From Clostridium frigidicarnis (GTDB lineage: Bacteria; Bacillota; Clostridia; Clostridiales; Clostridiaceae), in the NCBI RefSeq assembly GCF_900111985.1, contig NZ_FOKI01000008.1, forward strand, positions 119,380 to 183,379: 64,000 nucleotides of DNA, in the 5' to 3' direction. Each line of letters starts with the position of its first letter. Positions within the stretch are counted from its first letter, which is position 1. Of this stretch, positions 1,210 to 17,616 are shown in pieces. The notes under the pieces were generated by a model. It ran no database searches. It saw only the letters and a program-made list of their open reading frames with translations, and was not told the origin of the DNA. The translations under genes and the position numbers were made by a program.

Positions 1210-1244
1210 AAACTTGATTGATAATTTCTCACTTAAACAAGTTT
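1210..1244 (-). terminator. Weak hairpin at the end of the ECF transporter operon
   Basis: AAACTTG pairs with CAAGTTT across a 20-base loop, overlapping the stop of the S-component gene. TTTTCTT follows on the minus strand. A plausible but weak intrinsic terminator. Confidence 0.35.
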
Positions 1245-1947
1245 ATCGTTCCATTAATCCATACTTTACTTTTACTCGTTGAAGCTTACTTCCCCATGAG
1301 TCTGATAATAAATATAAAAATATAACTGTGCATAATCCATGGGTAAAATCAAACCAAAAACTTGATATGTATAATGAGCCAAATGCCTTCCATGAAAACT
1401 CATTAATAAATCCTGTTGCAGCCCAAATGTTCATTATCCACCCAAAGAAAAATCCACATAACATTCCAAATGTACATAACTTCCACTTTTCATTTAAAAA
1501 ATTATGTTTAGATAAAATTCCTGCAATAAAACCTATTGCACCCCAACAAAACATTTGCCAAGGTGTCCATGGCCCTTGTCCAAAAAATAAATTTGAAGAT
1601 ATTGCAGCTACAGCCCCAGTTACAAATCCTGCTTCTGGACCAAAAACCATAGCAGTAATAATAATAATAGCTGATGTAGGCTTAAAGCTTGGTATGGGAG
1701 CAAAAGCTACTCTCCCAATACACGCTATAGCAGCCATTATTGCTAGAGGTATCCATTCTCTTGCTTTTGGCTTTTTCATTTCATACATCATTAAAAATGG
1801 TATCATTGCAAGGACAATAAATATTACACTTATTACACCATAATTTCTATTATCAACTATAGTATAAATCATTAAAGTAACTGGAAATATAATTGTTATA
1901 AACAATGCAGCTAATTTTATTCTTTTACTTCTATTGCTGATTTGCAT
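1243..1947 (-). CDS. ECF transporter S component (probable cobalamin-specific)
   Basis: A 234-residue protein with about six hydrophobic helices, the size and pattern of a substrate-binding S component of an energy-coupling factor transporter. The central stretch GRVAFAPIPSFKP and FFGQGPWTPWQMF is typical of one S-component family. Nothing in the sequence alone proves the substrate. Cobalamin is inferred because the operon lies downstream of a B12 riboswitch and includes DUF4430 proteins. It is the last gene of the operon. Its ATG lies 31 bases inside the ATPase gene, preceded by AAGGATG, so translation is likely coupled. Alternatives are another tetrapyrrole or a cobalamin precursor. Confidence 0.8.
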   Translation of the reverse strand: MQISNRSKRIKLAALFITIIFPVTLMIYTIVDNRNYGVISVIFIVLAMIPFLMMYEMKKPKAREWIPLAIMAAIACIGRVAFAPIPSFKPTSAIIIITAMVFGPEAGFVTGAVAAISSNLFFGQGPWTPWQMFCWGAIGFIAGILSKHNFLNEKWKLCTFGMLCGFFFGWIMNIWAATGFINEFSWKAFGSLYISSFWFDFTHGLCTVIFLYLLSDSWGSKLQRVKVKYGLMER

Positions 1948-3605
1948 ATATCTATCACATCCTTACATGTAACTGCATTGACATTAATATGCCTTGCCAT
2001 TCTATTGGCTGCAGTTGTATAAAATCTATTATTTGCAAAAAAAGTTTTTGGCGCTCCTTCTGATACAATATTGCCATCAAAGAACAATGCACATCTATCA
2101 GAGTATATTGCACTAAACTCTATATCATGGGTTACCATTATAATTGTAATCCCTTGTTTTTTTAAACCTATTAATATGTTCCCAAGCTCTTCTCTTGCAT
2201 AAATATCTAGTCCCTTTGTAGGTTCATCTAAAAGAATTATTTTAGGCTTTAATAACATTATTTTAGCCATTGCAGCCTTTTGCATCTCTCCACCACTTAA
2301 ATCATAAGGATGTTGATCTAAAAAGGTATCTATATCAAATATTTTTGATATTTCTATAACATTCTCTAAAGCCTCTTTTTTATCTATATTAGAATTATAA
2401 TATACATCTAAAAGATCTTCTCTTAATGTATTAAATAGAAATAAACTTTCAGGGTTTTGAGGCAAAACTGCCATGTTTTCTTTAAATAAAGAACCATTCT
2501 TATATTTTTTTATATCTATGCCATTTACTAAAACCTTTCCCTTTAAAGGCTTTTTTTCATAAGATATAACTGAAAGGGTTGTTGTTTTTCCTGCTCCATT
2601 CCCGCCAAGTATGCAATATATTTCTCCTTTTGATACTTTTAATGAAACATTTCTTAATACGGGTTCCTGATTTTTATCATACTTAAACCACACATCTTTA
2701 AGTTCAATGACAGAGTTTTCATGGTTCTTTAAAGTACTTTTATCTATTGTTGCAGTTATCTCATTAAGTGTATTTATATTTATAAAGTTATCTATCCAAG
2801 CTCTACCCTCTTTTACTGTTAGTGGACACTTGTTTCCAACTTGTATTTCTTTATATATTCTTGTTGGAGTTGGCAACGAATTAAACATTGAATGTTTTGT
2901 TTCAATTAATTCTCTTACTACACTTTGGCATGTATCAAAACATAAAATCTCTGAATTATCCATAACCAATATCCTGTCAGCCAACGAAAATACCTCTTCT
3001 AATTCATGCTCCGTCATTATAATGGTTGTTCCAAGCTCTTTATTTATCTTTGTTATAGTGTGAATAAAATCTCTTGATGCTATAGGATCTAGCTGTGATG
3101 TTGGTTCATCCAATATAATAACTTTAGGTTCCATCACCATTATTGATGCTAAATTTAATAATTGCTTTTGCCCTCCTGATAATTCACTTGTGTTTTTTCT
3201 AAACCATCCTTGTATTCCAAAAAAACTTGCCATTTCTGCAACTTTTCTTCTTATGGTTTCTGTATCAACGCCCATATTTTCTAATCCAAAAGCTAGTTCA
3301 TGCCAAACTTTATCCGTAACTATTTGAGCATTACAATCCTGCATTACATATCCTATTTCAGAAGCTGTTGTAACCTCTCTATGGAGATTTAAATCTATTC
3401 CACAATATTTAATTATGCCAGACCTATTTCCATGGGGAGTTATTTCTGGTTTCATATGTTTTAATAAAGTTGTTTTTCCACATCCCGATTTTCCACATAC
3501 TAATATAAACTCTCCTTCATTGATTTCTATGTTTATATTGCTTAACACCTTTCTATTTTGTTTAGGATATGAAAAATTGAGTTTTTCTATTTTAATGATT
3601 TCCAT
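1917..3605 (-). CDS. ECF transporter ATPase with two fused ABC domains
   Basis: A 562-residue protein with two complete ABC ATPase domains. Domain 1 (about residues 3-240) has Walker A GKSGCGKTT, signature LSGGQKQ and Walker B VIILDEPTSQLD. Domain 2 (about 300-540) has Walker A GGNGAGKTT, signature LSGGEMQ and Walker B IILLDEPTKGLD. Fused A-A' ATPases power ECF-type vitamin and metal importers. All catalytic motifs are intact in both halves. It starts 19 bases inside the end of the T-component gene, with GGAGG 7 bases before the ATG, and overlaps the S component by 31 bases. This arrangement suggests one dedicated ECF module and not a shared one. Confidence 0.92.
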   Translation of the reverse strand: MEIIKIEKLNFSYPKQNRKVLSNINIEINEGEFILVCGKSGCGKTTLLKHMKPEITPHGNRSGIIKYCGIDLNLHREVTTASEIGYVMQDCNAQIVTDKVWHELAFGLENMGVDTETIRRKVAEMASFFGIQGWFRKNTSELSGGQKQLLNLASIMVMEPKVIILDEPTSQLDPIASRDFIHTITKINKELGTTIIMTEHELEEVFSLADRILVMDNSEILCFDTCQSVVRELIETKHSMFNSLPTPTRIYKEIQVGNKCPLTVKEGRAWIDNFININTLNEITATIDKSTLKNHENSVIELKDVWFKYDKNQEPVLRNVSLKVSKGEIYCILGGNGAGKTTTLSVISYEKKPLKGKVLVNGIDIKKYKNGSLFKENMAVLPQNPESLFLFNTLREDLLDVYYNSNIDKKEALENVIEISKIFDIDTFLDQHPYDLSGGEMQKAAMAKIMLLKPKIILLDEPTKGLDIYAREELGNILIGLKKQGITIIMVTHDIEFSAIYSDRCALFFDGNIVSEGAPKTFFANNRFYTTAANRMARHINVNAVTCKDVIDICKSAIEVKE

Positions 3606-4465
3606 TTTATTGCCTCCATAATCTCTAAAAAAATAGGTGTTGTGTTTAATACTAAAAATGTAGTATATATAAAAATTGCCTTTATACTAAAGTTTATTTT
3701 TGCTACTCTTGGATAAAAAGATAATTTTCCAAAACCTAAACCATATCCAATAAAACATACTATAAAGCATATAATTATGAAAATTAACATAATAAAATCT
3801 TGTCTGTTAAAAATGAAAATTGAAAAGGTAGTTCTTTTTTTTACTCCATATCCTCTAGCCCTCATTGAATCTGATGTTTCAACACCTTCCTCTAGTGCCC
3901 ATGTAACCAATATAGATAATATTCTCATAGAACCTTTTATTCTAGCTATTAAATTTCCACTAGTACAATCAAACCCTATTGTTCTTTGTGCTGCTGCTAT
4001 AATTTTTGTTTGATTTATAAGCTTTGGTATTAATTTCAAAGTCATACTTATCATCAATGCAATAGATGGTATAAACTTTCCAAAAATATATATTACCTCA
4101 TCAGATGTTATTATAGTGTTATAACAACTAAACCACATTATAACCGATAGCATCATTGCAGCAGACATTATTCCGTATTTTATTGACTCATATGTTATAG
4201 GGTTTCCCCTAAAATAAAATAATAAAGTTGCTCCCCTATGAGTAAATATAGGATTAGCTAATGCTATGAATATAAACATTGGAATACCAAATAGAATGTT
4301 AAGTTTTAATGCTTTTTCTCCATTTATAAGTAGCGCATATATTATAGAACTAATAAGAGATATACCTACAAATATTGGATGCATAAAAAGCATTGAAAAA
4401 ATTAATATAATGGTAAAGTACGAAAAACTAACTATTGGATGATAATTTGAAAATGCTTTTTCCAT
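3587..4465 (-). CDS. ECF transporter transmembrane T component (CbiQ/EcfT family)
   Basis: A membrane protein of about 292 residues with five or six hydrophobic segments and a cytoplasmic region carrying the EcfT coupling motif (MRARGYG). The T component links the ATPases to the S component. I chose the ATG at 4465 over an upstream in-frame codon because AAGGAA lies 6 bases before it and because it forms a TAATG overlap with the stop of the lipoprotein gene. That overlap indicates translational coupling between the DUF4430 lipoprotein and the transporter, which is the best evidence that they act together. Confidence 0.88.
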   Translation of the reverse strand: MEKAFSNYHPIVSFSYFTIILIFSMLFMHPIFVGISLISSIIYALLINGEKALKLNILFGIPMFIFIALANPIFTHRGATLLFYFRGNPITYESIKYGIMSAAMMLSVIMWFSCYNTIITSDEVIYIFGKFIPSIALMISMTLKLIPKLINQTKIIAAAQRTIGFDCTSGNLIARIKGSMRILSILVTWALEEGVETSDSMRARGYGVKKRTTFSIFIFNRQDFIMLIFIIICFIVCFIGYGLGFGKLSFYPRVAKINFSIKAIFIYTTFLVLNTTPIFLEIMEAIKWKSLK

Positions 4466-5217
4466 TACTTTTCCTTCTCTCTTATATCTTCTCCTAGCCA
4501 ATGCTGTCCAAGGTCCTCCCCTAAATCACAGGTATAATTCCATTGAATAACATCTCCTGGTTTAACTTTATATGATCCACATCCATAGTTTGGATACCAA
4601 TCATTTACACAATACATCCATCCACTCCATCTTCCACCGTCAAATTCATATAAGTTATCAATACCTTGAATATATATAGTAGTTGCGACACCATTATACT
4701 CCATATGTATCTTTTTACTTTTAACAATTCTTTGAAGAATATCATATACAGTATCTCCCTTTTTAATTTTCATAGTAGTAACTGGTAAAATAACTCCATC
4801 TGAAGGTAAATGACTAAATTCAGGTTTCTTATTTACTCCTGTATTTATAGCTGTATCACATCTAATTGTAATTGTACATGTGTTATCATCAGATGATTTT
4901 TTAGATTCATCATTTGATTTAGAGTTACTTGTACTATTTTTTTTAGATGATGTTTTCTTATTTTTAGAATTTGATGTTTCCTTTGCAGGTGATTTATCCT
5001 CAGTAGAGTTGTCTACAGATTCTTTCTCTGACTCACCTTCACCAGAACTATTTTCTTCAACATTACTCTTATCTGAATCTGCATTTGTTGAATCACTAGC
5101 TACATCAGAACTTTCTGGTACATTAAGCTCTGGTATTTCTACTTTATTTAAACCGCATCCAACAAATGAAAACATAAATATAACTATCAATAAAACATTG
5201 ACTATTTTCTTTTTCAC
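4465..5217 (-). CDS. DUF4430 (transcobalamin-like C-terminal domain) lipoprotein
   Basis: A 250-residue protein starting with GTG. An N-terminal hydrophobic segment ends in the lipobox FVGC, so the protein should be a lipoprotein on the outer face of the membrane. Residues about 28-110 form a low-complexity Ser/Asp/Glu/Lys/Asn linker. Residues about 112-245 are a DUF4430 domain with the hallmark GWMYCVND, the preceding GGRWSG and the closing KPGDVIQWNYT strand. DUF4430 corresponds to the beta domain of intrinsic factor and transcobalamin. Its stop codon overlaps the EcfT start. The likely role is the membrane-proximal cobalamin receptor that feeds the ECF S component. Ligand identity is inferred from domain and context. 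Confidence 0.85.
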   Translation of the reverse strand: MKKKIVNVLLIVIFMFSFVGCGLNKVEIPELNVPESSDVASDSTNADSDKSNVEENSSGEGESEKESVDNSTEDKSPAKETSNSKNKKTSSKKNSTSNSKSNDESKKSSDDNTCTITIRCDTAINTGVNKKPEFSHLPSDGVILPVTTMKIKKGDTVYDILQRIVKSKKIHMEYNGVATTIYIQGIDNLYEFDGGRWSGWMYCVNDWYPNYGCGSYKVKPGDVIQWNYTCDLGEDLGQHWLGEDIREKEK

Positions 5218-5321
5218 TTATATCACTCCCAATTTTTCATTCAATTCATTTCATTACCAATACTCTAACTTATTATAATTTAAAAGATAATCAGCAAACT
5301 TTAAATTAAGCTTTTCAAAAT

Positions 5322-5357
5322 TTCAGATTAAGTTTATTTAAACAAACTTAATCTGAA
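5322..5357. terminator. Hairpin between the giant surface-protein gene and the lipoprotein gene
   Basis: Perfect 14-bp stem TTCAGATTAAGTTT / AAACTTAATCTGAA, extended by AAGC/GCTT outside it. The tail on the minus strand (ATTTTGAAAAG) is not a strong U-tract. It could reduce, but not abolish, transcription from the giant gene into the transporter genes, or it could mark a separate promoter downstream. Confidence 0.5.
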
Positions 5358-5413
5358 GCTTTGAATCACTTAATTAATTGATAAACGCTAAACATTACCA
5401 ATAAATAATCACA

Positions 5414-8400
5414 TTATTTTTTCTTTTTCATAAACAATACAATACCTATATTAGAAATTAAAGTTAAACCTACGAGCCCTCCTATTGCCTTATTCATATT
5501 GCTACTATAAAGATTTTTAAATTCACCTATAGCTTCTCTTAAATCTCCATTATTTTCTTTTAAAGCATCTATCATTTCCTTGTCATAATTAATATCCTCT
5601 GAAGATTCTTCATCTGAATCTTCATCCTCATCTTCATCTTCCCCATTTGAATCCTCAGAATTTACACTATTTGAGCTACCTCTATTTATATTTTTTAAGC
5701 CCTTTCTATTAGAATTACTTCCACTATCCTCACTATTAGAATTAGTATTAGACTCTTTATTGATATTGTCGTTATCATTTACTTCTACATTGTTGTCATC
5801 TTTATTATCATTATCTGGTTTATTTTCGGTAGATGGCTTGTCTTCTTTATCTATTTCTATAATGCTATATAAAGAAAAATCTTTAGTTTTAAATACTACA
5901 TTCTTACCATCCACTTTAAAATCAAGTTCTTTTACACTTCCATCTTCAAACAGTTTTACTACTTTTATTATTTTATTATCCTTAATAACATAATCCTCTG
6001 GTAATGTTATAGATACACTTACATAATCCTTAGGCTCTATTACTTTACCATCAGCTTCTATTTTAATGTCATATAAAGAAATAAGATTAGAGGTACTGTT
6101 AATTTTGCTTAATATTTGTTTTGCACTTGTATACTTTGACTCATCATCTTTTATTATATTTTTTACATTTAATATACTGTTTTCTGGTAAAATTCCTTTG
6201 TTGAAATTAACTTTTATGTTATTGTCATTATTTTTTATCTCTAAATTTTCTGAAGGTCTTTTCTTTAAATTCTTTACAGCATCATCAAGTTCGTTCAAAT
6301 AATCTTCCATTGTTTTAAAATACTTTTTAAGTTTATCTTTATTTGTTTCTTTTTCTATGTCTTTTTCATTTGCTCCCATATATTTTTCCATCTTTTGGAT
6401 TACAGTTTTTAACTTATTATGACTTTCCTCAGTATAATCTACATCTTTATATTCTTTTACTTCTTTTAAACAATCTTTTAATTCTTTAAGTTTATTTGAA
6501 CATTTAACTTTTATTTCTTCTTCTAATCCATTAATTGCTTTATCAATATCATTTATATATTTTTCTATCTTTTCTAATGTTTTATCTAAACCTTTTAAAT
6601 CTCCATTGTCTATTTCTTTTTGTAACTTATCTAAATCTTTTTCAGCATCCTTAACTAAATCTTTTAATTTTTTAAAACTGTCTTTTGTATAATCACTTTC
6701 TTTATACTCATTTCCACTTTTTATTTTATCTTTTAAAGTTTTAATTTTTTTATTACATTGCTCTTTCATTTCTTCTTTATTTTTACTCTCTGAAGATACG
6801 TCACTCATATCATATAGTTTCTTTTTACCTTCACAAAATCTTTTATAAGCTACTAATGTATATAAAGATTGTTCTGTTGCCATTCCATTAGGTACATTTT
6901 TAGGATGTTCAAATGCTCCATTACTATTTTTATATTCCATAACGGTTGATAATAAATCTCCATTTTCTTTTACAAATCCGTTTTCTTTATCCATTATATC
7001 TTTACCTAAAGCTGTTAATGCAACTATTACTTGAGCAGGACTTTGAACATTTTCTCCTGACCAATCTGATTTATATCCTCCATTATCAAGCTGAATTTTA
7101 GATAGTATTTTTAATGATGAATCTACTGCATTTTTTACATCACTACGATGAGTATAATTTGATAAAGCTTGTAAAGTCATTGCTGTCATATCCACATCTG
7201 CATTCTTTGCATTTTCAAATAATGAAAATCCACCATCTTTTGTTTTATATTTCATTATTTCTTTTATTAAACTCTCTCTAGTATTTATTGCATTTTTTGG
7301 TTCTGAATATTCATTTGTATCTAAAGCTATTAATGCAAAAACTGGTCCGTTTAATCCTTGTTTATTTACGTCTTCGTAGTTAAATAAAATATTTATTAAA
7401 TTATATCCTCCAACATTAGTAGGATCTTTTCCTATAGATGTTACTGCCAATATTATTCTTTCTAAATCTGTAACTTTTCTAAAATTACCCTTTTGTTTTT
7501 GTACTTCTTTTTCAACACTTTCATAATATTTTTCATAATAACCACTAGGCACACTATATCCACTTCTTGCAAGACCCAATATATACCATTCATTTGAATA
7601 TGTTGGATTTGGGCAACTTTTTAATATCCATTTAGAAGCACCATCAATAGCTTCATCAACATTAACACTTGGCATTACTGGTTTTTCTTCTATTTTCTCT
7701 ATTGCATCATCTATAGAACTTATTTTCTTTTCAATATTCTTTATAAATTCTTTTAATTTATCATTATCAACTTTGTTTATATCTTTATCTATATCCTGTG
7801 ATTCTTTTTCTCCTTCTTCTATAGCATCCTTTAAATTTTTAAATGTTTCTTCTGTGTATTTTTCTTCTTCAAATTCCTTTGCTGATTTTATTTTTTCTTT
7901 TAAATCATTTAACTTTTCTTCACATTGTTTTTTTAAATCTTCGCTGTTTTTTTCTAAATTACTTATACTATTATCTATATTTCTTATAGCTTTTTCTAAA
8001 GTTTCTAGTAAATCTGTTAACTGTTTTTTATTATAAGAATCTATTTCTTCTCCTACTTTATCCATTTCTTTTTTTCCATTATCAATAGACTCTTGCAATA
8101 CTTTAAAAGTTTCTGCTGTATAGTTTTCTTTATTATATTTTTCTGCTTTCTTAATTGAATCTTTAAGTAAATTAATTCTATTAAAACATTGCTTTTTAAG
8201 CTTATTGTTATTTTTTTCCAAATCACTTATAGCTTTATCTATATCTTTTATGTTATTTTTAACTGTTTCTAGCAAACTTTTTAATTTTTCATCACTTAAA
8301 TCTTTTATTGTTTCTTTATCTATATTTCCTACTGTCTCTTCTCCTTTAGATATTGCTTCTTGTAAAGCTTTGAAGCTATCTTCTGTGTAAGTTACTTTAA

Positions 8401-11400
8401 CATATCTTTTCCCTTCAATTATTTTATTTTCAAGTACTTTAATCTTATCTAAGCATTGAGTTTTTAAATCTTTGTTTTCATTATCTTCTTTAACTAATGC
8501 TTTTATAGCATTATCAATTTCTTTTATATGCTTTTCAAAATTACGTGATAATGCTGATAATTCTTCATCTAGCTCGGGTACCCATGTACCTGAATCTCCT
8601 TCTTTTGCAATAGCATTAGCAATAGCAATAATGTTTTTAGTTATTAAATTAGATTTACTATTATAATTCTTAGCTAATGTAGTTGACATCATTCTTCCTA
8701 TTTCTTCATCTGATGGTATGTCAGCTTCTGCACTTTTTATTACTTTTTTTAAATCATTAAAAGATTCACTAGTGTAATCTTCTTCTTTATATTTCTTTGC
8801 CTCTTTTACCTTATCTCTAAGATTAAATATCGTATCTACACAATCTATATCTTGTCCAAAAGCTTTACAAGTATAATAAATTCTAACTACATCTCCATCT
8901 TTTAATGTTCTTCCAGCCATTCCAACATTAGGCCTTGACCCATTAAGACTATACATCCATCCACTTAAATAACCATGATCAAACTCCCCAAGCCATTCTC
9001 CATCAACTTTCATGGAAGCTAAATAAAAATTGTCTCGTATCTCTCCAGTTTTTTTATACTTTATATTTTTTTCTTTTAAAATTCTATCTAAAACTACAGA
9101 TGTAAGTTCTCCATGTTTTATATTTACTTCTGTTGGTGCCATAATATCAGGTTGTCCAAGCACTCTTCTTTCTATAGAAAATGTAACTTTTTCAACTTTA
9201 GTTTGTACCTCTAAAGCTTTAATAGCATTCTCTATTGATTCAATGCTAAGTTGAATTTTATCTATTAAGCTTTGTAATTCTTTCGTGTCTAAATTCTTTA
9301 ACTTATCTTCATATATATTAGCTGATATTACCTTAGCATTTGCTATTGCATCTTTTAATGAATTGAAACTATTTTCTGTATAATCTTCTTTGTTATATTG
9401 TTTTCCTTTTTCTATTTCTTGTTTAAGTGATTTAGCTTCTTCCAAGCATTTATTCTTTAATTCAATATTAGTTTCTTTTAAACTATTTATAACAGCATCT
9501 ATATCATCTTTGTTTTCCCCAACTGTTTTTATTAAACTTTGTAATTCATCTGTACTTAGATTTTTTAATCTATCATCATTTATATTACTTATTGTTTTTT
9601 CGCCATTTATTATTGCACCTTCTAATGCTTTGAAACTATCTTCTGTATAATTTTGTATTTTATATTTTTTTCCTTCTTCTATTTTTTGTTTAAGTGATTT
9701 AGCCTTTTCTAGACATTGATTCTTTAATTCAATACTAGTTTCTTTTAAATTATTTATAGCATTCCCTATACCTTCTATGTTTTCTTCAGCTGTTTTTATT
9801 AAACTTTGCAATTGCTCTTTATTTAAATTTTCTATTTTATCTTCTTCTAAATCGCCTAATGTTTTTTCACCATTTGCTATTGTATCTTTTAACACTTTAA
9901 AACTATCTTCTGTATAATTGTCTTTATTATATTTTTTCCCTTCTTCTATTTTTTGTTTAAGTGATTTAGCTTCTTCTATACATTGTTTCTTTAATTCAGT
10001 ATTAGTTTCTTTTAAATTATTTATAGCTTTATCTATATTTCCTAGATTATTTTCAAATGCATCTAAGAGATTTTGTAACTCATCCTTGCTTAAATCTTTT
10101 ATTTTGTCTTCATCTGTATCACTTATTGTTTTTTCACTATTTGTTATTGCATCTTTTAATAAATTAAAACTATCCTCTGTATAATCTTCTTCTTTATAAG
10201 TTTTTCTTTCTTTAATCTTCTCCCTAAGTGTTTGAAGATATTTTATACATTGGTCTTTTAACTCATTGTCAGCCATATTTACTTTAACTAAATCTTTTAT
10301 AGCATTTTCAATTTCTTCTATATGGTCATCAAACTTCTTTGCTAAATCTGTTAATTCTTTATCTTCATCAATTTTTGAGTCAAAACCCTGCTTGCCTTCA
10401 TGTGTCATCATTTCATTTATTTTTTCATCAGATACTATATCTGCTTTTGAACTTTCTGCTGCTTTAACTAAAGCCTCAAAAGATCTATTGGTATAATCTA
10501 CCTCATTATATTCTTCTGTTTTTTTTATAGTTTCTTTAAGTTTTTCCATGTTATCTAAACAATCTATATCCTGTCCACAGCCTCTACATGTATAATAAAC
10601 TCTAACTACATCACCACTTTTTACTGTTTTTTCTTTAATTTCATCATCAAGTATTAACATATTTTTTTCAACTTTTGCATTACTTCTTAATCCATTAATG
10701 CTATGCATCCAACCACAATATCCGTTGTACTTACCTTGGTCAACAAATCCATTTATATTAGGGGCTTTAATCCTAATATAACCTTCATCAGAATATCTTA
10801 ATTTTATATCTTCCTCTTCTAAAACTCTCTCTAAAACTTCAGATACAGTTTCCCCTTCATTTATATTTACTTCTGTTGGAGATATAATATCTGGTTGTCC
10901 AAGTGTCCTTATTTCTACTGAAAAAGTAATTTTTGCTTCTTCAGATTTTGCATTTAAAGATTTTATAGCATTATCTATTGATAATATACTTACTTCAAGT
11001 TTTTCTATTAAGTCCTGTATATCTTCAGCACTTAATTTTTCTATTTCATCTTCTTTTATATTCCCTATTATTTCGTTACTATTTGTTATTACTTCAGTTA
11101 ATGCCGTGAAACTATCTTCTGTATAATCTTTTTTATTATAGTTTTCTGCTTTTTTTATTATTTCTTTGAATTCTTCAAGTTTTTCTGAGCATTGTTTTTT
11201 TAGCTCATTCTTATTTTCTTCCAAATTACTTTGTTTGTTTTTTTCTAATTTGCTTATAGCTGAATTTATATCTTCTTTAATCTTTTCAGAATCATTTATT
11301 AAACTTTGTAACTCTTCTTCACTTGAATTTTCTATGGCATCATTTTCTAACTTACTTGCTATTTCTTTACCTTTTGTTATTGCTTCAGTTAATGCACTGA

Positions 11401-12802
11401 AACTATCTTTTGTATAATCTCCTTCCTTATAGTTTTCCGCTTCCGTTATTTTTTCTTTAAGTGATTGAGCTTTTTCTGAGCATTGTTTTTTTATCTCATC
11501 CTTATTTTCTTCTAAATTATTTTCAGCATTATCTATATTTTTTATATTTTCTTCAGCTGTTTCTATTAAATCTTTATTTTCCTCATCACTTAAGTTTTCC
11601 TGTTTACTTTCTATATTATCTTTAGTTTCTTCTCCTTTGCTTATTGCACTTTCTAATAAATTAAAACTATCTTCTGTATAATTTTCTTTATTATAATCTT
11701 TTGCTTTATTTATCTTATTTTTAAGAAATGTACTAGTATATAAATATTGAATTTTCAAATCTATATTTTCATTAATATCACTAGTTTCTTCACAGCTCAT
11801 ATCATATAATTTATTTTTTCCATCAGCAAATCTATCATATGATACCAACCCATACATGGTTTGTTCTGTAGCCATTGAATTTATTGTTCCCTTTGGATAC
11901 TCAAATCCTCCATTTTCATTTTGATAAGTCATAACATAAGATAATAAGTTTCCATCTTTCTTTACAAATCCATTAGATGAATCTAGTATATCTTTTCCTA
12001 AAGCTGTTAATGCAACTATTACCTGTGCAGAACTTTGTACATTTTCCCCTGACCACTCTGACTTGTATCCTCCGTTATCTAATTGATTTTCAGATAACAC
12101 TTTTAATGATGATTCTACAACTTCTTTAACCTCTTCATTATCCATATAATTTGATAATGCTTGTAATGTTATTGCTGTCATATCTACATCTGCATTTTTA
12201 GAATTTTTAAATAATGAAAATCCTCCATCCTCTGTTTTAAACTCTAATATACTTTTTATTAAACTTTCTCTAGTATTTACTGCATTTTTGGGTTCTTTAT
12301 ATTTTTTTGAATCTAATGCTAATAATGCAAACACAGGTCCATTTAAGCCTTGTTTTGTTATGTTTTCATAGTTCCATAATTTATCTATTAAATTATATTC
12401 TCTAACACTTGTAGGATCTTTTCCAATAGAATTTAATGCTAGAATTATTCTTTCTAAATCTGTTACCTTTGAAAACTCTCCATCCTCATCATTTACTTCT
12501 TTAACTACACTGTTATAATAATTTTCATAGTATTCATCAAGCAGTTTAATTCCTGCTCTAGAAAGGCCCATTATACACCATTCTTTTCCATATGTTAAAT
12601 CTTTATCTTGATTAATCATATATTGAGCAGTATTACTTATTGCTTCTTTTATATTAATCTGCGAGTTTTCCAAAACTATTGATGAATTTATAGAATTTTT
12701 TTTACTTTCTACTTGTGCAAAAGCAGTTGAAAAATTAGTAAAAATAAATACTATAGTCATAATAAAAGCAATTAAACTCTTACTTTTAGAAAGTTTTTTC
12801 AT
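5414..12802 (-). CDS. Giant membrane-anchored transcobalamin/intrinsic-factor-like surface protein
   Basis: 2462 residues. Approximate layout: signal peptide 1-30 (ends STAFAQ); alpha/alpha barrel 50-335; three FIVAR-like repeats; DUF4430 domain 622-750; five FIVAR-like repeats; DUF4430 domain 1205-1321; four FIVAR-like repeats; second alpha/alpha barrel 1712-2000; two FIVAR-like repeats; a beta-rich domain 2186-2314; an Asn/Ser/Asp/Glu-rich stretch; and one transmembrane helix followed by KKKK at the end. No LPXTG was seen, so it should be membrane- and not wall-anchored. Barrels carry DGGFSLF, DNGGYKS and ATEQ motifs. The DUF4430 domains carry GWMHSING and GWMYSLNG. Barrel plus DUF4430 is the intrinsic factor/transcobalamin domain pair. 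Most FIVAR-like repeats open with a lone cysteine. It begins ATG after GGGGG and lies behind a cobalamin riboswitch and terminator. I infer B12 capture at the cell surface. Which domains bind is unknown. Confidence 0.85.
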   Translation of the reverse strand: MKKLSKSKSLIAFIMTIVFIFTNFSTAFAQVESKKNSINSSIVLENSQINIKEAISNTAQYMINQDKDLTYGKEWCIMGLSRAGIKLLDEYYENYYNSVVKEVNDEDGEFSKVTDLERIILALNSIGKDPTSVREYNLIDKLWNYENITKQGLNGPVFALLALDSKKYKEPKNAVNTRESLIKSILEFKTEDGGFSLFKNSKNADVDMTAITLQALSNYMDNEEVKEVVESSLKVLSENQLDNGGYKSEWSGENVQSSAQVIVALTALGKDILDSSNGFVKKDGNLLSYVMTYQNENGGFEYPKGTINSMATEQTMYGLVSYDRFADGKNKLYDMSCEETSDINENIDLKIQYLYTSTFLKNKINKAKDYNKENYTEDSFNLLESAISKGEETKDNIESKQENLSDEENKDLIETAEENIKNIDNAENNLEENKDEIKKQCSEKAQSLKEKITEAENYKEGDYTKDSFSALTEAITKGKEIASKLENDAIENSSEEELQSLINDSEKIKEDINSAISKLEKNKQSNLEENKNELKKQCSEKLEEFKEIIKKAENYNKKDYTEDSFTALTEVITNSNEIIGNIKEDEIEKLSAEDIQDLIEKLEVSILSIDNAIKSLNAKSEEAKITFSVEIRTLGQPDIISPTEVNINEGETVSEVLERVLEEEDIKLRYSDEGYIRIKAPNINGFVDQGKYNGYCGWMHSINGLRSNAKVEKNMLILDDEIKEKTVKSGDVVRVYYTCRGCGQDIDCLDNMEKLKETIKKTEEYNEVDYTNRSFEALVKAAESSKADIVSDEKINEMMTHEGKQGFDSKIDEDKELTDLAKKFDDHIEEIENAIKDLVKVNMADNELKDQCIKYLQTLREKIKERKTYKEEDYTEDSFNLLKDAITNSEKTISDTDEDKIKDLSKDELQNLLDAFENNLGNIDKAINNLKETNTELKKQCIEEAKSLKQKIEEGKKYNKDNYTEDSFKVLKDTIANGEKTLGDLEEDKIENLNKEQLQSLIKTAEENIEGIGNAINNLKETSIELKNQCLEKAKSLKQKIEEGKKYKIQNYTEDSFKALEGAIINGEKTISNINDDRLKNLSTDELQSLIKTVGENKDDIDAVINSLKETNIELKNKCLEEAKSLKQEIEKGKQYNKEDYTENSFNSLKDAIANAKVISANIYEDKLKNLDTKELQSLIDKIQLSIESIENAIKALEVQTKVEKVTFSIERRVLGQPDIMAPTEVNIKHGELTSVVLDRILKEKNIKYKKTGEIRDNFYLASMKVDGEWLGEFDHGYLSGWMYSLNGSRPNVGMAGRTLKDGDVVRIYYTCKAFGQDIDCVDTIFNLRDKVKEAKKYKEEDYTSESFNDLKKVIKSAEADIPSDEEIGRMMSTTLAKNYNSKSNLITKNIIAIANAIAKEGDSGTWVPELDEELSALSRNFEKHIKEIDNAIKALVKEDNENKDLKTQCLDKIKVLENKIIEGKRYVKVTYTEDSFKALQEAISKGEETVGNIDKETIKDLSDEKLKSLLETVKNNIKDIDKAISDLEKNNNKLKKQCFNRINLLKDSIKKAEKYNKENYTAETFKVLQESIDNGKKEMDKVGEEIDSYNKKQLTDLLETLEKAIRNIDNSISNLEKNSEDLKKQCEEKLNDLKEKIKSAKEFEEEKYTEETFKNLKDAIEEGEKESQDIDKDINKVDNDKLKEFIKNIEKKISSIDDAIEKIEEKPVMPSVNVDEAIDGASKWILKSCPNPTYSNEWYILGLARSGYSVPSGYYEKYYESVEKEVQKQKGNFRKVTDLERIILAVTSIGKDPTNVGGYNLINILFNYEDVNKQGLNGPVFALIALDTNEYSEPKNAINTRESLIKEIMKYKTKDGGFSLFENAKNADVDMTAMTLQALSNYTHRSDVKNAVDSSLKILSKIQLDNGGYKSDWSGENVQSPAQVIVALTALGKDIMDKENGFVKENGDLLSTVMEYKNSNGAFEHPKNVPNGMATEQSLYTLVAYKRFCEGKKKLYDMSDVSSESKNKEEMKEQCNKKIKTLKDKIKSGNEYKESDYTKDSFKKLKDLVKDAEKDLDKLQKEIDNGDLKGLDKTLEKIEKYINDIDKAINGLEEEIKVKCSNKLKELKDCLKEVKEYKDVDYTEESHNKLKTVIQKMEKYMGANEKDIEKETNKDKLKKYFKTMEDYLNELDDAVKNLKKRPSENLEIKNNDNNIKVNFNKGILPENSILNVKNIIKDDESKYTSAKQILSKINSTSNLISLYDIKIEADGKVIEPKDYVSVSITLPEDYVIKDNKIIKVVKLFEDGSVKELDFKVDGKNVVFKTKDFSLYSIIEIDKEDKPSTENKPDNDNKDDNNVEVNDNDNINKESNTNSNSEDSGSNSNRKGLKNINRGSSNSVNSEDSNGEDEDEDEDSDEESSEDINYDKEMIDALKENNGDLREAIGEFKNLYSSNMNKAIGGLVGLTLISNIGIVLFMKKKK

Positions 12803-12837
12803 ACTTTTTCCCCCTTTTTATTCAGTGAAAAAAGAAC

Positions 12838-12872
12838 AATAAAAAAGAAACCTGTAGCTAATAAGGTTTCTT
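12838..12872 (-). terminator. Riboswitch-linked intrinsic terminator (expression platform 1)
   Basis: AAGAAACCT pairs with AGGTTTCTT, followed by a run of T on the minus strand. It lies between the aptamer and the start of the giant gene. Almost the same sequence follows the second riboswitch. This indicates B12-dependent transcription termination. Confidence 0.85.
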
Positions 12873-12914
12873 GGGTATAAAATTAATATATTAAAAATAT
12901 ACATTAATTTTATA

Positions 12915-13077
12915 CTCATCATTCCTCACCGAAAGATAAATATTTTATCATCATCAGGTTTCCTGACTTAAAGTTTCATATCTACTCCCTTTCCTTCCCA
13001 AAATAAATTCAGTGGTAATAAAGGTTTTGTAACTTTTACAGTAGAGTGAGCTGTTGTGGATTTTCACCACATTCCCT
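12915..13077 (-). promoter_or_regulatory. Cobalamin (B12) riboswitch 1
   Basis: Read on the minus strand it contains the conserved cobalamin aptamer blocks in order: GGGAATGTGGTGAAAATCC, ACAGC, CACTGTA-like pairing, TACCACTGA, GGGAAGG, the B12 box AGTCAGGAAACCTG (about 12953-12969), and TCGGTGAGGAATGATGAG. A terminator hairpin follows, so bound cobalamin should switch off the giant surface-protein gene and, by read-through, the ECF operon. Confidence 0.93.
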
Positions 13078-13097
13078 TAACTGATAATATTATGTAT

Positions 13098-13134
13098 AAA
13101 AAGCATTCTAAAATTTAATTCTAGAATGCTTTTA
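13098..13134 (-). terminator. Terminator after the tandem-barrel gene
   Basis: AAAAGCATTCTA pairs with TAGAATGCTTTT, with T-rich flanks. It separates the 632-residue gene from riboswitch 1, so the two riboswitch units are independent transcripts. Confidence 0.75.
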
Positions 13135-13200
13135 TTTTTTTACACATTCTAAATATGTTTTCTATAATAAGACTATATTTTTGTGTAATTGTTATGAATT

Positions 13201-15099
13201 TTATCTCATATCATATAACTTACTTTGATTATTAATAAATCTATCATATGCTACTAGTGTATACATAGCTTGTTCTGTAGCCATTGAATTTACTGTTCCC
13301 TTTGGATGTTCAAATCCTCCATTTTTATTTTGATAAGTCATAACATAAGATAATAAATTTCCATCTTTCTTTACAAATCCATTAGATGGATCCAGTATAT
13401 CTTTTCCTAAAGCTGTTAATGCTACTATTACTTGTGCAGGACTTTGTACATTTTCTCCTGACCATTCTGACTTATATCCTCCGTTATCTAATTGATTTTT
13501 AGATAACACTTTTAATGATGATTCTACAACTTCTTTAACTTCTTCATTATCCATATAATTTGATAATGCTTGTAATGTCATTGCTGTCATATCTACATCT
13601 GCATTTTTAGAATTTTTAAATAATGAAAATCCTCCATCCTCTGTTTTAAACTCTAAGATACTTTTCATTAAACTTTCTCTAGTATTTACTGCATTTTTGG
13701 GTTCTTCATATTTTTTTGAATCTAATGCTAATAATGCAAACACAGGTCCATTTAAGCCTTGTTTTGTTATGTTTTCATAGTTCCATAATTTATCTATTAA
13801 ATTATATTCTCTAACACTTGTAGGATCTTTTCCAATAGAATTTAATGCTAGAATTATTCTTTCTAAATCTGTTACCTTTGAAAACTCTCCATCCTCATCA
13901 TTTACTTCTTCAACTACACTGTTGTAATAATTTTCATAGTATCCATCAGGTATCTTAATTCCTGATCTAGAAAGCCCTATAGTATACCATTCTTTACCAC
14001 ATTTTAATTCTGCACAATCCTTAACCATATATTGTGCAGTTTTATTTATTGCATCTTTTACATCAATACTAGGATTACTAGTTTTTTCATCATTCATATC
14101 ATATAGTTTATTTTTTTTATTAATAAATCTATCATATGATACTAATGTATACATAGCTTGTTCTGTAGCCATTGAATTTACTGTTCCCTTTGGATGTTCA
14201 AATCCTCCATTTTTATCTTGATAAGTTATAACATAAGACAATAAGTTTCCATCTTTCTTTACAAATCCATTAGATGGATCCATTATGTCTTTTCCTAAAG
14301 CTGTTAATGCTACTATTACTTGTGCAGGACTTTGTACATTTTCTCCTGACCACTCTGACTTATATCCTCCGTTATCTAATTGATTCTTAGATAAAACTTT
14401 TAATGATGATTCTACAACTTTTTTAACCTCTTCATTATCCATATAATTTGATAATGCTTGTAATGTCATTGCTGTCATATCTACATCAGCATTTTTAGAA
14501 TTTTTAAATAATGAAAATCCTCCATCTTCTGTTTTAAATTCTAAGACATTCTTTATTAAACTTTCTCTAGTATTTACTGCATTTTTGGGTTCTTCATATT
14601 TTTTTGAATCTAATGCTAATAATGCAAATACAGGCCCATTTAATCCTTGTTTTGTTATGTTTTCATAATTCCACAAAAGACCTATTAAATTATAATCTCC
14701 AATCTTTTCAGGATTTTTTCCAATTGAATTTAATGCTAAAATTATTCTTTCTAAATCTGTTACCTTTGAAAAATCCCCCTCCTCATAACTTACTTCTTCA
14801 ACTACACTTTTATAATAATTTTCATAATATCCATCTGATACTTTAATTCCTGCTCTAGAAAGCCCTATAGCATACCACTCTCTGCCATATTTTAACTCTG
14901 CACAATCTTTAAGCATATATTGTGAAGTTTTATTTATTGCTTCTTTTAAATCAATGTTAGAACTTCTTGAAATTGCTGATAAATTAGTATTATTTGTTTT
15001 ATTTTCAACTTTTGCAAAAGCAGTTGAAAAATTAGTGAAAATAAATACTATGGAAATAATTAAAGCAATTAAACTATTGTTTTTAAAAGTTTTTTTCAC
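13201..15099 (-). CDS. Secreted tandem alpha/alpha-barrel (prenyltransferase-repeat) protein
   Basis: A 632-residue protein with a GTG start and GGGGG site, a signal peptide ending STAFAK, and two consecutive barrels (about 50-335 and 345-630), each with TDLERIILAL, DGGFSLF, DNGGYKS and NSMATEQAMY. The family name in databases is prenyltransferase/squalene oxidase repeat. However, the barrel of intrinsic factor and transcobalamin has the same fold, and the DUF4430 gene immediately upstream (34 bases apart, same riboswitch) supplies the matching second domain. No anchor is visible, so it should be released or bound by partners. It is nearly identical to the barrels of the giant protein. Enzymatic prenyltransferase activity is unlikely for a secreted protein. 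Confidence 0.82.
   Translation of the reverse strand: MKKTFKNNSLIALIISIVFIFTNFSTAFAKVENKTNNTNLSAISRSSNIDLKEAINKTSQYMLKDCAELKYGREWYAIGLSRAGIKVSDGYYENYYKSVVEEVSYEEGDFSKVTDLERIILALNSIGKNPEKIGDYNLIGLLWNYENITKQGLNGPVFALLALDSKKYEEPKNAVNTRESLIKNVLEFKTEDGGFSLFKNSKNADVDMTAMTLQALSNYMDNEEVKKVVESSLKVLSKNQLDNGGYKSEWSGENVQSPAQVIVALTALGKDIMDPSNGFVKKDGNLLSYVITYQDKNGGFEHPKGTVNSMATEQAMYTLVSYDRFINKKNKLYDMNDEKTSNPSIDVKDAINKTAQYMVKDCAELKCGKEWYTIGLSRSGIKIPDGYYENYYNSVVEEVNDEDGEFSKVTDLERIILALNSIGKDPTSVREYNLIDKLWNYENITKQGLNGPVFALLALDSKKYEEPKNAVNTRESLMKSILEFKTEDGGFSLFKNSKNADVDMTAMTLQALSNYMDNEEVKEVVESSLKVLSKNQLDNGGYKSEWSGENVQSPAQVIVALTALGKDILDPSNGFVKKDGNLLSYVMTYQNKNGGFEHPKGTVNSMATEQAMYTLVAYDRFINNQSKLYDMR
13204..14980. 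repeat. Tandem duplicated barrel modules, also shared with the giant gene
   Basis: The two barrel-coding halves (about 13204-14080 and 14104-14980) are alike at nucleotide level over long stretches. Both resemble 11800-12650 in the first barrel of the giant gene, while the second barrel of the giant gene (6800-7670) is clearly more diverged. This indicates recent duplication or gene conversion within the locus. Confidence 0.8.
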
Positions 15100-15133
15100 T
15101 ATTCTGCCCCCTTTTTGTTCAGTAAAAAATTCA

Positions 15134-15856
15134 CTATTTATTTTTCAAATTATTTATATCATTATCTATGGATTTTATATGCTGTTCCATTTTATTTGAT
15201 AATACTTTTAAATCAGCATCTCCTTTGCCTAATTTAGTTGACATGCCTTTTCCTATTTCTTCATTTGATAACATATTTGCTTCAGCTTCAGCTATAGAAG
15301 ATTTTAAATTTTCAAATGTTTCTTTTGTATAATTTTCTTCTTTATAATTTTTACCTTGACTTATTTTTTCTCTTAATGCAAAAATTTTATCTACACAATC
15401 TACATCTTGTCCAAATTCTTTAGCTGTGTAGTGTATTCTTACTACATCACCATCATGTAAATTATATCCACTCATACCAACACCAGGTTTAGAACCGTTT
15501 ACACTATACATCCAACCACTTAAAAATCCATGATCAAATTCTCCAAGCCATTGTCCATCTACCTTTATTTTAGATAAATAAAATGAGTTAATTATATCAC
15601 CTGTGCTTTTATATTTTATTCCAGAATCTTTTAGAACTCTGTCTAAAACTACAGATGTAGGTTCACCTTGTTCTATGGATAACTCTTTCATTGGTATTAT
15701 ATCCAGCTGTCCAATTACTCTTCTCTCTACAGAGAATTTTACTTTTGCAGGTTGTCCACTTGCGCCCATAGCAAATGCTGTTGAACCATTTGTAAACACA
15801 ATTATCATTGCTATAATTAATGCCAACAACCTACTTTTCTTAAAAATTTTGTTCAT
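15134..15856 (-). CDS. Secreted DUF4430 protein with a C-terminal FIVAR-like repeat
   Basis: A 240-residue protein with a signal peptide of about 30 residues ending STAFA. A DUF4430 domain at about 36-150 contains GEFDHGFLSGWMYSVNG and the closing GDVVRIHYT strand. One FIVAR-like repeat (about 155-238) ends SIDNDINNLKNK just before the stop, with no anchor. It closely matches the second DUF4430 and following repeat of the giant protein. It is the first gene after riboswitch 2, with AGGGGG before the ATG. Together with the next gene it amounts to the two halves of an intrinsic-factor-like protein encoded separately. Cobalamin binding is inferred, not shown. Confidence 0.85.
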   Translation of the reverse strand: MNKIFKKSRLLALIIAMIIVFTNGSTAFAMGASGQPAKVKFSVERRVIGQLDIIPMKELSIEQGEPTSVVLDRVLKDSGIKYKSTGDIINSFYLSKIKVDGQWLGEFDHGFLSGWMYSVNGSKPGVGMSGYNLHDGDVVRIHYTAKEFGQDVDCVDKIFALREKISQGKNYKEENYTKETFENLKSSIAEAEANMLSNEEIGKGMSTKLGKGDADLKVLSNKMEQHIKSIDNDINNLKNK

Positions 15857-15895
15857 TTTTCTTTCCCCCTTTTTTTATTTAGTGAGAAAATAACA

Positions 15896-15928
15896 ATAAA
15901 AAAAGAAACCTATTTAGTAAGGTTTCTT
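15896..15928 (-). terminator. Riboswitch-linked intrinsic terminator (expression platform 2)
   Basis: AAGAAACC pairs with GGTTTCTT, followed by seven T on the minus strand. It lies between riboswitch 2 and the DUF4430 gene and is nearly the same as platform 1. Confidence 0.85.
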
Positions 15929-15972
15929 GGGTATAATACTAAAGCATACAAATAAAAGCATACCTTAATGTT

Positions 15973-16138
15973 ATACTCATCATTCCCCACCGAAAGACAA
16001 ATATTCTATTACCGGCAGGTCTCCTGACTTAAAGTTTCATACCTAATCCCTTTCCTTCCCAAAATCATTCAGTGGTAATAAAGGTTTCGTAACTTTTACA
16101 GTAGAGTGAGCTGTTGTGGATTTTCACCACATTCCCTT
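15973..16138 (-). promoter_or_regulatory. Cobalamin (B12) riboswitch 2
   Basis: Conserved blocks on the minus strand: GGGAATGTGGTGAAAATCC, ACAGC, TACCACTGA, GGGAAGGAAAGGGA, the canonical B12 box AGTCAGGAGACCTGCC (about 16013-16029) and TCGGTGGGGAATGATGAG. It is a close paralogue of riboswitch 1, including the downstream terminator, so the control region was duplicated together with the signal-peptide region. It controls the DUF4430 and tandem-barrel genes. Confidence 0.95.
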
Positions 16139-16310
16139 TTAATACATAGCTATAACCGATAATATTTAGATTATTTTGTTCATTCTTATAATATACCAAT
16201 AGATTTTTTATGTCAATATATAGAATTATTTTAAGATAATTGATAGACAAAATAATTTTGTAACTAAATTTGTAACATAACCCTTAAGCAATCTAGAATT
16301 TACTGACATT

Positions 16311-16668: not shown

Positions 16669-17616
16669 TTATTTTATTGCATTGCTTATTTCCTTTATCA
16701 TGTTATTTGTTGCCGTAATACCACTTCCTCCTAAGTACCAAGTTTCTGGAGTAAGGTATATTATTTTATTGTTTGTATATGCATTAGTACCCTTTACTAT
16801 ATCTTTTTCTATTACATCTTTAGCACTTTCTTGATTATTTCCAACTATAACCCCTTTATCAATTACAAATAAATAGCCAGGATTTTTATCTAATAGATAT
16901 TCATATGTTATATTTTGTCCATGCTTAGCGTCGCTAATTTTATCATCTGCTAAATTAAAACCAAACTCATCGTATATAGTTGTAAATCTAGATCCTTGCC
17001 CAAATACACTAATAGTTCCTTCATTAACCATTGCTACTAAAGCATTTTTATTTTCTCTTTTTATCTGTTCATTTAACTCTTTAACTTCTTTATCTATATT
17101 CTCTAGCTGATTTTTTGCAAAATCTTCTTTTTCAAAAATACTACCCAATATGTTTACATTTTTCTTAAGCGAACCAAAATGATCATTTTTTTCTGTTCCT
17201 AATCCTATGGTTGGTGCTATTTTAGATAGTTCATCATAATATTTCTCTTGTCTACCCTCTATTATTATTAAATCTGGTTTAAGCTCATTTATTTTTTCTA
17301 AGCTAAACTCTAATAACGCACCAAGATCTGTATATTTATCATCCTTAAACTTTTCTAAGTAATTTGGGATACTGGATTTTGGTAATCCTACTATATCTAT
17401 CCCCATATTATCTAATATATCTACGCTGCCATAATCTAAAACAACAACTCTTTTAGGATTTTTAGGTACCGTAGTTTCTCCATATCTATGGGTTATATTA
17501 ATTGTACTTTCCTTACTTGTAGTATTTTCATTACTGGTTTTATTCTTTATAAAATATGTTGCTCCTAATAATATAACTATAATAGCTATAACAATTGTTC
17601 CTATTTTTTTATTCAT
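16669..17616 (-). CDS. yclQ: Siderophore ABC transporter substrate-binding protein (YclQ/FatB-like)
   Basis: A 315-residue periplasmic-binding-type protein of the iron-siderophore group, with the class III fold pattern: RVVVLDYGSVDIL near residue 55, KPDLIIIEGRQEKYYDEL, and a C-terminal half with NKIIYLTPETWYL. It is the fourth gene of a yclN-yclO-yclP-yclQ order, matching the petrobactin-type importer of Bacillus subtilis. The N-terminal hydrophobic segment (about 5-22) is not followed by a lipobox cysteine, which is unusual. The protein would stay attached by an uncleaved signal anchor. The actual siderophore is not known. Confidence 0.88.
   Translation of the reverse strand: MNKKIGTIVIAIIVILLGATYFIKNKTSNENTTSKESTINITHRYGETTVPKNPKRVVVLDYGSVDILDNMGIDIVGLPKSSIPNYLEKFKDDKYTDLGALLEFSLEKINELKPDLIIIEGRQEKYYDELSKIAPTIGLGTEKNDHFGSLKKNVNILGSIFEKEDFAKNQLENIDKEVKELNEQIKRENKNALVAMVNEGTISVFGQGSRFTTIYDEFGFNLADDKISDAKHGQNITYEYLLDKNPGYLFVIDKGVIVGNNQESAKDVIEKDIVKGTNAYTNNKIIYLTPETWYLGGSGITATNNMIKEISNAIK

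Follow-up and report, generated by a model that had tools for sequence, protein, structure and literature searches.

What does an energy-coupling factor (ECF) importer carry when its genes lie behind cobalamin riboswitches and beside large exported proteins built of alpha/alpha barrels and DUF4430 domains? This question is raised by a locus of Clostridium frigidicarnis within a 64-kb window (G000:C14:119380-183379, the whole stretch of DNA analyzed, in a host genome of 4.34 Mb; coordinates below are positions in this window). The whole system lies on the minus strand and comprises two riboswitch-led units, from 1243 to about 16175; an earlier note on this DNA, which had proposed a B12 scavenging route, had the same start and an end at 16138, which is corrected here. 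We consider it likely, with a probability of about 0.8, that these units form a layered system for the capture and import of vitamin B12 (corrinoids).

In the proposed mechanism, low intracellular cobalamin would leave the riboswitch aptamers empty and the terminators unformed, and the genes would be transcribed. Secreted barrel and DUF4430 domains might then close round a corrinoid, by analogy with the alpha and beta domains of intrinsic factor, the DUF4430 lipoprotein would collect the ligand at the membrane and hand it over to the S component of the importer, and EcfT-EcfAA' would empty S into the cytoplasm using ATP. The joining of barrel and DUF4430 on separate chains round one ligand, and the order of the hand-off, are the conjectural parts of this proposal; the riboswitch matches, the domain make-up, the starts resembling export and lipid signals, the gene order and the similarity of S to CbrT could be read directly from the sequence.

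Riboswitch leaders and the ECF importer

Transcription unit 1 is headed by cobalamin riboswitch 1 (15997-16175), which matched the Rfam model RF00174 in cmscan over the full model (1-189) with 104.8 bits (E-value 3.6e-25), and unit 2 by cobalamin riboswitch 2 (12936-13100; 77.6 bits, 2.2e-17). Both sites, already taken for cobalamin riboswitches in the earlier note, were above the gathering score of 31.5, and they were the sole Rfam matches at gathering level within the window. Cobalamin-responsive switching of both leaders is predicted from these covariance-model matches. The CAGGARACCTGCC box, a consensus of Rfam-identified sites, is intact in riboswitch 1; in riboswitch 2 the box is CAGGAAACCTGATG, and one of the hairpins of the model is missing. 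Over 296 aligned bases, the leaders share 85.5% identity. Downstream of each riboswitch lies a terminator-like hairpin with a U-run, on the same strand, the first (15903-15928) found by a terminator scan and the second (12845-12872) read off the sequence and missed by the scan. Both terminator stretches fold far more stably than shuffled sequences (z -4.5 and -5.9, respectively). Because the number of terminators that the scan found in the region (2) did not exceed the expectation (2.3), the assignment of both terminators, which had also been proposed before, is based on their position and folds.

At the other end of the system, unit 2 encodes an ECF module which is complete, as the earlier note had it: the transmembrane coupling protein EcfT (3587-4465), the fused double ATPase EcfAA' of 562 residues (1917-3605; TIGR04520 in two stretches, 372.7 bits against a cut-off of 315) and an S component of 234 residues (1243-1947). 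The overlap described between the lipoprotein and EcfT genes was also found, the TAA stop (4467-4465) and the ATG start (4465-4463) sharing one base at 4465; an alternative TTG start of EcfT at 4501 is likewise open. The window EcfT gave no Pfam match of its own, CbiQ (PF02361) included. The profile of its family (A7) matched the solved EcfT chains 5d3m_D (4.5e-23), 4hzu_T and 4huq_T, with E-values from 4.5e-23 to 6.8e-20, and one EcfT sequence matched by this profile occurs also in entry 6fnp.

The sole PDB sequence match of the S component at E <= 1 was CbrT (6fnp_A, 1.2e-9). When a profile of 39 S relatives was compared with solved chains, 6fnp_A was matched with 3.2e-25 and 4hzu_S with 1.7e-4, and no other chain at E <= 1. 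With CbrT as its closest solved relative, S is predicted to be a CbrT-type subunit of a cobalamin (corrinoid) importer, the transporter type that had been suggested for it. Of the outcomes named in the earlier note as refuting its reading, neither failure of the leaders in the cobalamin model nor grouping of S with a transporter of another vitamin was observed. An S relative at 70% identity was found in 'Clostridiaceae bacterium 14S0207'.

Exported putative carriers and the predicted DUF4430 fold

Unit 1 encodes an exported DUF4430 protein of 240 residues (15134-15856; DUF4430 at residues 52-145, one FIVAR-like segment), in which we read a putative signal peptide, and an exported two-barrel protein of 632 residues (13201-15099; barrels at 74-323 and 370-619; SQHop_cyclase_C 56.5 bits, Prenyltrans 47.9 bits; profiles 5e-77 and 5e-80), in which no anchor was seen. 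In unit 2, a giant exported protein of 2462 residues (5414-12802) combines, by Pfam and our own profiles, a barrel (74-323), a weaker DUF4430 domain found by our own profile (636-739), a second DUF4430 domain (1217-1312) and another barrel (1738-1987). The fourth protein is the DUF4430 lipoprotein of 250 residues (4465-5217; DUF4430 at 135-231), with a lipobox-like VGCG. The DUF4430 and alpha/alpha barrel make-up seen earlier was borne out: PF14478 (DUF4430, curated cut-off 23.8 bits) was matched by the 240-residue protein (43.7 bits; profile 2.5e-24), the 2462-residue protein (53.4 bits) and the lipoprotein (72.2 bits), and four barrels were found, two in each of the two barrel-containing proteins.

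The signal-peptide-like starts of the three exported proteins are similar, each ending AFA, and the four barrels are mutually 63.6-86.7% identical. Together with the identity of the leaders, the barrel identities indicate that the two units arose at least partly by duplication of carrier genes and riboswitch. A simple pattern count gave 13 FIVAR-like motifs in the 2462-residue protein; the term FIVAR-like is our reading of the repeated motif, since the Pfam FIVAR family was not among the matches in this protein. The protein had been described as surface-anchored, and this has to be narrowed. No sorting motif was detected by a simple LPXTG-type pattern, and a hydrophobic segment (2438-2461) is followed by a lysine-rich C-terminus, so that anchoring would mean anchoring in the membrane. 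Used whole as a query, the 240-residue protein gave only 10 homologue matches, its own sequence included.

Comparison of the DUF4430 profile with solved chains by sequence gave no B12 carrier (the best match, at E 0.5, was an unrelated protein), and a fold model was therefore needed. The structure model matched the beta domain of animal B12 carriers (PDB 2PMV, 4KKI and 2BB5), with a clear gap to other structures, and on this basis DUF4430 is predicted to have the fold of the beta domain of transcobalamin and intrinsic factor. According to sections of two papers (PMC1796856, PMC1949818), transcobalamin-like SLBB domains are recognized by a beta-hairpin inserted after the helix, with a conserved aromatic residue. 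In the DUF4430 model, a helix (53-63) is followed by two strands (68-71 and 78-82), and Y78 is invariant in 72/72 sequences; that these elements are equivalent to the published hairpin is our reading of the model. In lipoprotein numbering, tyrosine 182 is invariant in all 72 aligned sequences (alignment A6, the lipoprotein itself included), and all 72 members matched PF14478 at E <= 0.001. A solved protein of Ruminococcus gnavus (3u7z, 'putative metal binding protein') also matches the DUF4430 model and may belong to a short type of DUF4430-S pair described below.

The barrel profile matched 35 solved chains at E <= 1, with terpene cyclases, macroglobulin, complement and prenyltransferases among them and no B12 carrier. 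Of the analogy with intrinsic factor drawn in the earlier note, the DUF4430 part is supported at fold level by the model and the barrel part less specifically. When a natural DUF4430-barrel fusion (P0002) was folded, the domains were confident and their mutual arrangement was not (predicted template modelling score 0.47). Many barrel-DUF4430 relatives (P0034-P0120) have dockerin domains, one named source being an uncultured Ruminococcus, so that cellulosome-like scaffolds may serve for the display of such carriers.

Recurrence of the system across Bacillota

Among 116 genomes of the host's family, 54 had DUF4430, 107 a cobalamin riboswitch and 48 S relatives (E < 1e-20). Sixty regions of up to 20 kb were fetched; the 56 chosen for S were scored together with the window, giving 57 S loci, and L155-L158, fetched for DUF4430, were excluded. 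Around S we found DUF4430 in 54/57 loci, the barrel in 50/57 and EcfT in 54/57. A same-strand cobalamin riboswitch was present in 50/57, upstream of S in 49, and was missing in the other seven (L105, L116, L129, L142, L143, L145 and L147). L105 has the adenosylcobalamin variant RF01482, the contig of L143 is 3.4 kb long, and the DNA of L147 overlaps that of the riboswitch-bearing L146. Neither DUF4430, the barrel nor a cobalamin riboswitch was found within the fetched DNA of L116, where a Clostridiales-2 RNA (RF02937) was observed at 13086-13167, directly 5' of the EcfT-A-S set.

A further set of named loci (the best 80 of at least 588) includes Desulfosporosinus, Intestinibacter bartlettii, Lutispora thermophila, many Paenibacillus and Bacillus, gut isolates and gut metagenome assemblies. 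Of these 80 loci, 72 had DUF4430, 55 the barrel and 74 EcfT; 59 had a riboswitch on the same strand, which lay upstream of S in 56 of them, and in 71 loci a DUF4430-only gene was no more than 200 bases away from EcfT. The riboswitch model used, R1, was built on 18 Rfam-identified sites, the window's two included; rescanning seven loci with Rfam confirmed the five with R1 matches and gave no site in the other two. It should be noted that the sets of 57 and 80 are partly dependent: L099 and L103 are identical in place to L159 and L191, respectively, and L103 shares DNA with L134, as L146 does with L147, the S genes being different. In L202, L209, L222, L223, L228 and L237, EcfAA' and S are in a single open frame of 850-1047 residues, and a similar joining is suggested by long frames elsewhere, for example in genomes G255 and G322.

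As a control, we analyzed 45 loci around weaker S matches in the same genomes, 5 of which were shorter than 15 kb and 5 of which had no S by a stricter profile. A cobalamin riboswitch was detected in six (L244 and L259-L263), in each of which a short S has a DUF4430-like gene next to it. Three of these genes were found by the first profile and three as a reading frame adjoining S. Five of the riboswitches lie immediately before the pair, and that of L262 lies 7.1 kb upstream. A short-type DUF4430 profile, built from these six genes and those of L155 and L108, found all six, which is circular, and nothing convincing in the remaining 39 control loci, which is informative. These 39 loci also had no riboswitch below E 0.01. 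Thus, a second, shorter recurring pair was observed, in which a DUF4430-like protein of 134-167 residues is encoded beside a small S of 166-195 residues (L155 9562-10484, L244 and L259-L263). A cobalamin riboswitch closely precedes it in L155, L244, L259, L260, L261 and L263, and L108 (2954-3974) is likewise of this short type.

In 299 sampled Bacillota genomes, S (E <= 1e-20) was present in 87 and DUF4430 in 91; 83 had both, 4 had S alone and 8 had DUF4430 alone (Fisher 6e-59, a p-value inflated by shared descent). The co-occurrence across Firmicutes that the earlier note had asked about is therefore strong. DUF4430 was also present in the control genomes of Lactococcus lactis and Methanosarcina acetivorans.

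Alternative functions and known systems

Several observations weigh against the proposed B12 system. L142 (G104) and L145 (G073) contain the whole system in genomes without any RF00174 match; control by B12 riboswitches is therefore common and not universal. Some R1 matches at E 0.0097-0.1 (L209, L202, L218, L223 and a second site in L207) were left uncounted; counting the weak matches in the named set would raise its riboswitch-bearing loci to 63/80. In the same range, matches in L158, in the controls L258 and L277 and at a second site in L144 were also uncounted. Finally, the top curated Pfam match of S is the riboflavin S family PF07155 (CbiM, PF01891, gave 17.3 bits, below its cut-off of 23.1), and the NCBIfam riboflavin and folate S models match it far below their cut-offs (27.6 against 99 and 21.8 against 60, respectively), with sub-threshold matches to these models in 34/39 and 32/39 S-family members.

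The alternative that survives best, which we regard as a minor possibility, is that the corrinoids first imported by the system are not complete B12 but, for example, cobinamide or different cobamides, to be finished or remodelled by the cell. The host genome could finish precursors, as it contains CbiD and, behind another B12 riboswitch, cobT, cobA and cobS genes (over NCBIfam cut-offs); moreover, CbrT also transports cobinamide, as stated in part of PMC5997447. However, no data favour a precursor over B12, and the affinity of CbrT given in the same source is about four times higher for cobalamin (9.2 versus 36 nM).

Five of the seven RF00174 sites of the host genome lie outside the window. 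Besides the site before the cob genes, two (C43:116164 and C49:97909; L266 and L267) precede BtuC-family permease sets with scores below cut-offs; one set matched a BtuC model best, and the other a putative F420-0 permease model ahead of BtuC. With these two sets, the host may have up to three corrinoid import routes. Another site precedes a eut cluster in which EutA and EutB score over the cut-offs, and the fifth a further unit. Given CbiD, the cob genes and nine B12-binding-domain matches (eight over the cut-off), the cell probably synthesizes B12, or at least completes it, and also uses it, the system being an extra route. Across the 116 genomes, S and CbiD were unlinked (CbiD in 33/48 genomes with S and 47/68 others, Fisher p 1.0). 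The remark, in part of PMC1796856, that key enzymes of B12 synthesis are usually missing from such bacteria is not borne out in this family by CbiD, present in the same 33/48.

It is improbable, in our view, that the DUF4430 and barrel proteins are surface or adhesion proteins which use FIVAR-like spacers and bind sugars or other ligands, with the ECF part alone being related to B12. In favour of this reading, FIVAR-like motifs are a typical mark of surface display, as are the SLH (PF00395) and dockerin (PF00404) domains found as partners in relatives, and the barrels are similar to many toroid proteins. However, DUF4430 is a near-constant partner of S (83/87 S genomes), is encoded next to EcfT in most named loci and occurred in none of the 39 other S loci of the same genomes; its model also groups with B12 carriers, well apart from other structures.

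Cobalt import for B12 synthesis by a CbiMNQO-like transporter is less probable still. Cobalt importers are also found under B12 riboswitches (part of PMC3766115), and 15/23 aligned EcfT-family members matched CbiQ (PF02361), but by its PF01891 score S is not of CbiM type, its profile matched CbrT, 4hzu_S weakly and no other solved chain, and cobalt would presumably need no large extracellular carriers. The least probable reading is that S carries another vitamin (riboflavin or folate) in an incidental neighbourhood, as the curated matches above might suggest; the E-value for CbrT was some 20 orders of magnitude below that of 4hzu_S, the one further solved chain matched, and the 39 control loci of weaker-matching S had no B12 riboswitch below E 0.01. 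Both cobalt and other-vitamin transport by S were rejected on the Pfam, NCBIfam and solved-chain scores.

Two neighbours of the system were also observed. An importer of the iron-siderophore ABC type adjoins it (16669-20292; the best NCBIfam match of its binding protein is SstD, 225 bits, below the cut-off), and a 1410-residue protein with AAA_11/AAA_12 and REase_MTES_1575 (22525-26757) is possibly a defence helicase-nuclease.

The layered B12 system proposed here has a precedent in prediction. The earlier note knew of no characterized bacterial system of this kind. We found no experimental test of one in the open-access literature; the idea itself is already contained in part of Burroughs et al. 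2007 (PMC1796856), in which Gram-positive transcobalamin-like SLBB domains and toroids, in operons with CbiO/CbiQ-like genes, were proposed to scavenge B12, FIVAR was noted in Clostridium, and lateral transfer to animals was predicted. The toroid, SLBB, FIVAR and CbiO/CbiQ-like operon of that prediction cover the window system. Its main text has no occurrence of 'riboswitch', and the S component is not named in its relevant part. The UniRef name of one relative already reads transcobalamin-like. As far as searches of the open-access literature show, it is new that cobalamin riboswitches control such loci in several genera, that a CbrT-type S comes with an ECF module of its own, that a structure model matches the carrier fold with a clear gap to other structures, and that the co-occurrence was measured against controls. 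The prediction of 2007 is thereby made directly testable, and a likely function is suggested for the bacterial 'unknown' domain PF14478. Identifying B12 transporters in numerous gut genomes is described as an open problem in part of PMC6593275. Extracellular capture of B12 by Gram-positive bacteria has been little explored, and this locus unites riboswitches, an importer of a proven type and intrinsic-factor-like carriers.

Animal intrinsic factor, haptocorrin and transcobalamin are built of an alpha/alpha barrel besides the beta domain. In these carriers, B12 is sandwiched between the alpha and beta domains (part of PMC1796856). They consist of one chain, barrel first and beta domain second, whereas in the window the domains are on separate chains or in repeats spaced by FIVAR-like segments, and by our reading the order is sometimes reversed (P0002). 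The window proteins would therefore work like, and not be members of, the animal carrier family. Animal carriers also enter by receptor endocytosis, in contrast to the membrane importer of this system. With somewhat less than even confidence, we suggest a Bacillota extracellular B12 relay, in which secreted or membrane-anchored carriers, with barrel and DUF4430 split over chains that enclose a single corrinoid, pass the ligand to a DUF4430 lipoprotein docking on the CbrT-type S of its own ECF importer, all switched on jointly by B12 riboswitches, and from which the animal carriers descend and with which they compete in the gut. The system thus bears on the origin of human B12 carriers.

Among bacterial systems, the closest importer is ECF-CbrT of Lactobacillus delbrueckii (6FNP), to which S is related over 174 residues. 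According to part of PMC5997447, one ECF module serves CbrT and further S components (group II), whereas the window S has its own EcfT and fused EcfAA'. Unlike CbrT in its setting, it also lies with a DUF4430 lipoprotein, large exported barrel proteins and B12 riboswitches; 'lipoprotein' and 'riboswitch' have no occurrence in the main text of that paper. CbiMNQO differs by its CbiM-type S component. BtuCDF imports B12 too, but is a different type of ABC importer with no ECF parts. BtuG and BtuH of Bacteroides are likewise described as surface proteins that catch B12 ahead of an importer, and it is in this respect that they are likened to the window proteins; they function in a Gram-negative outer-membrane setting with BtuB.

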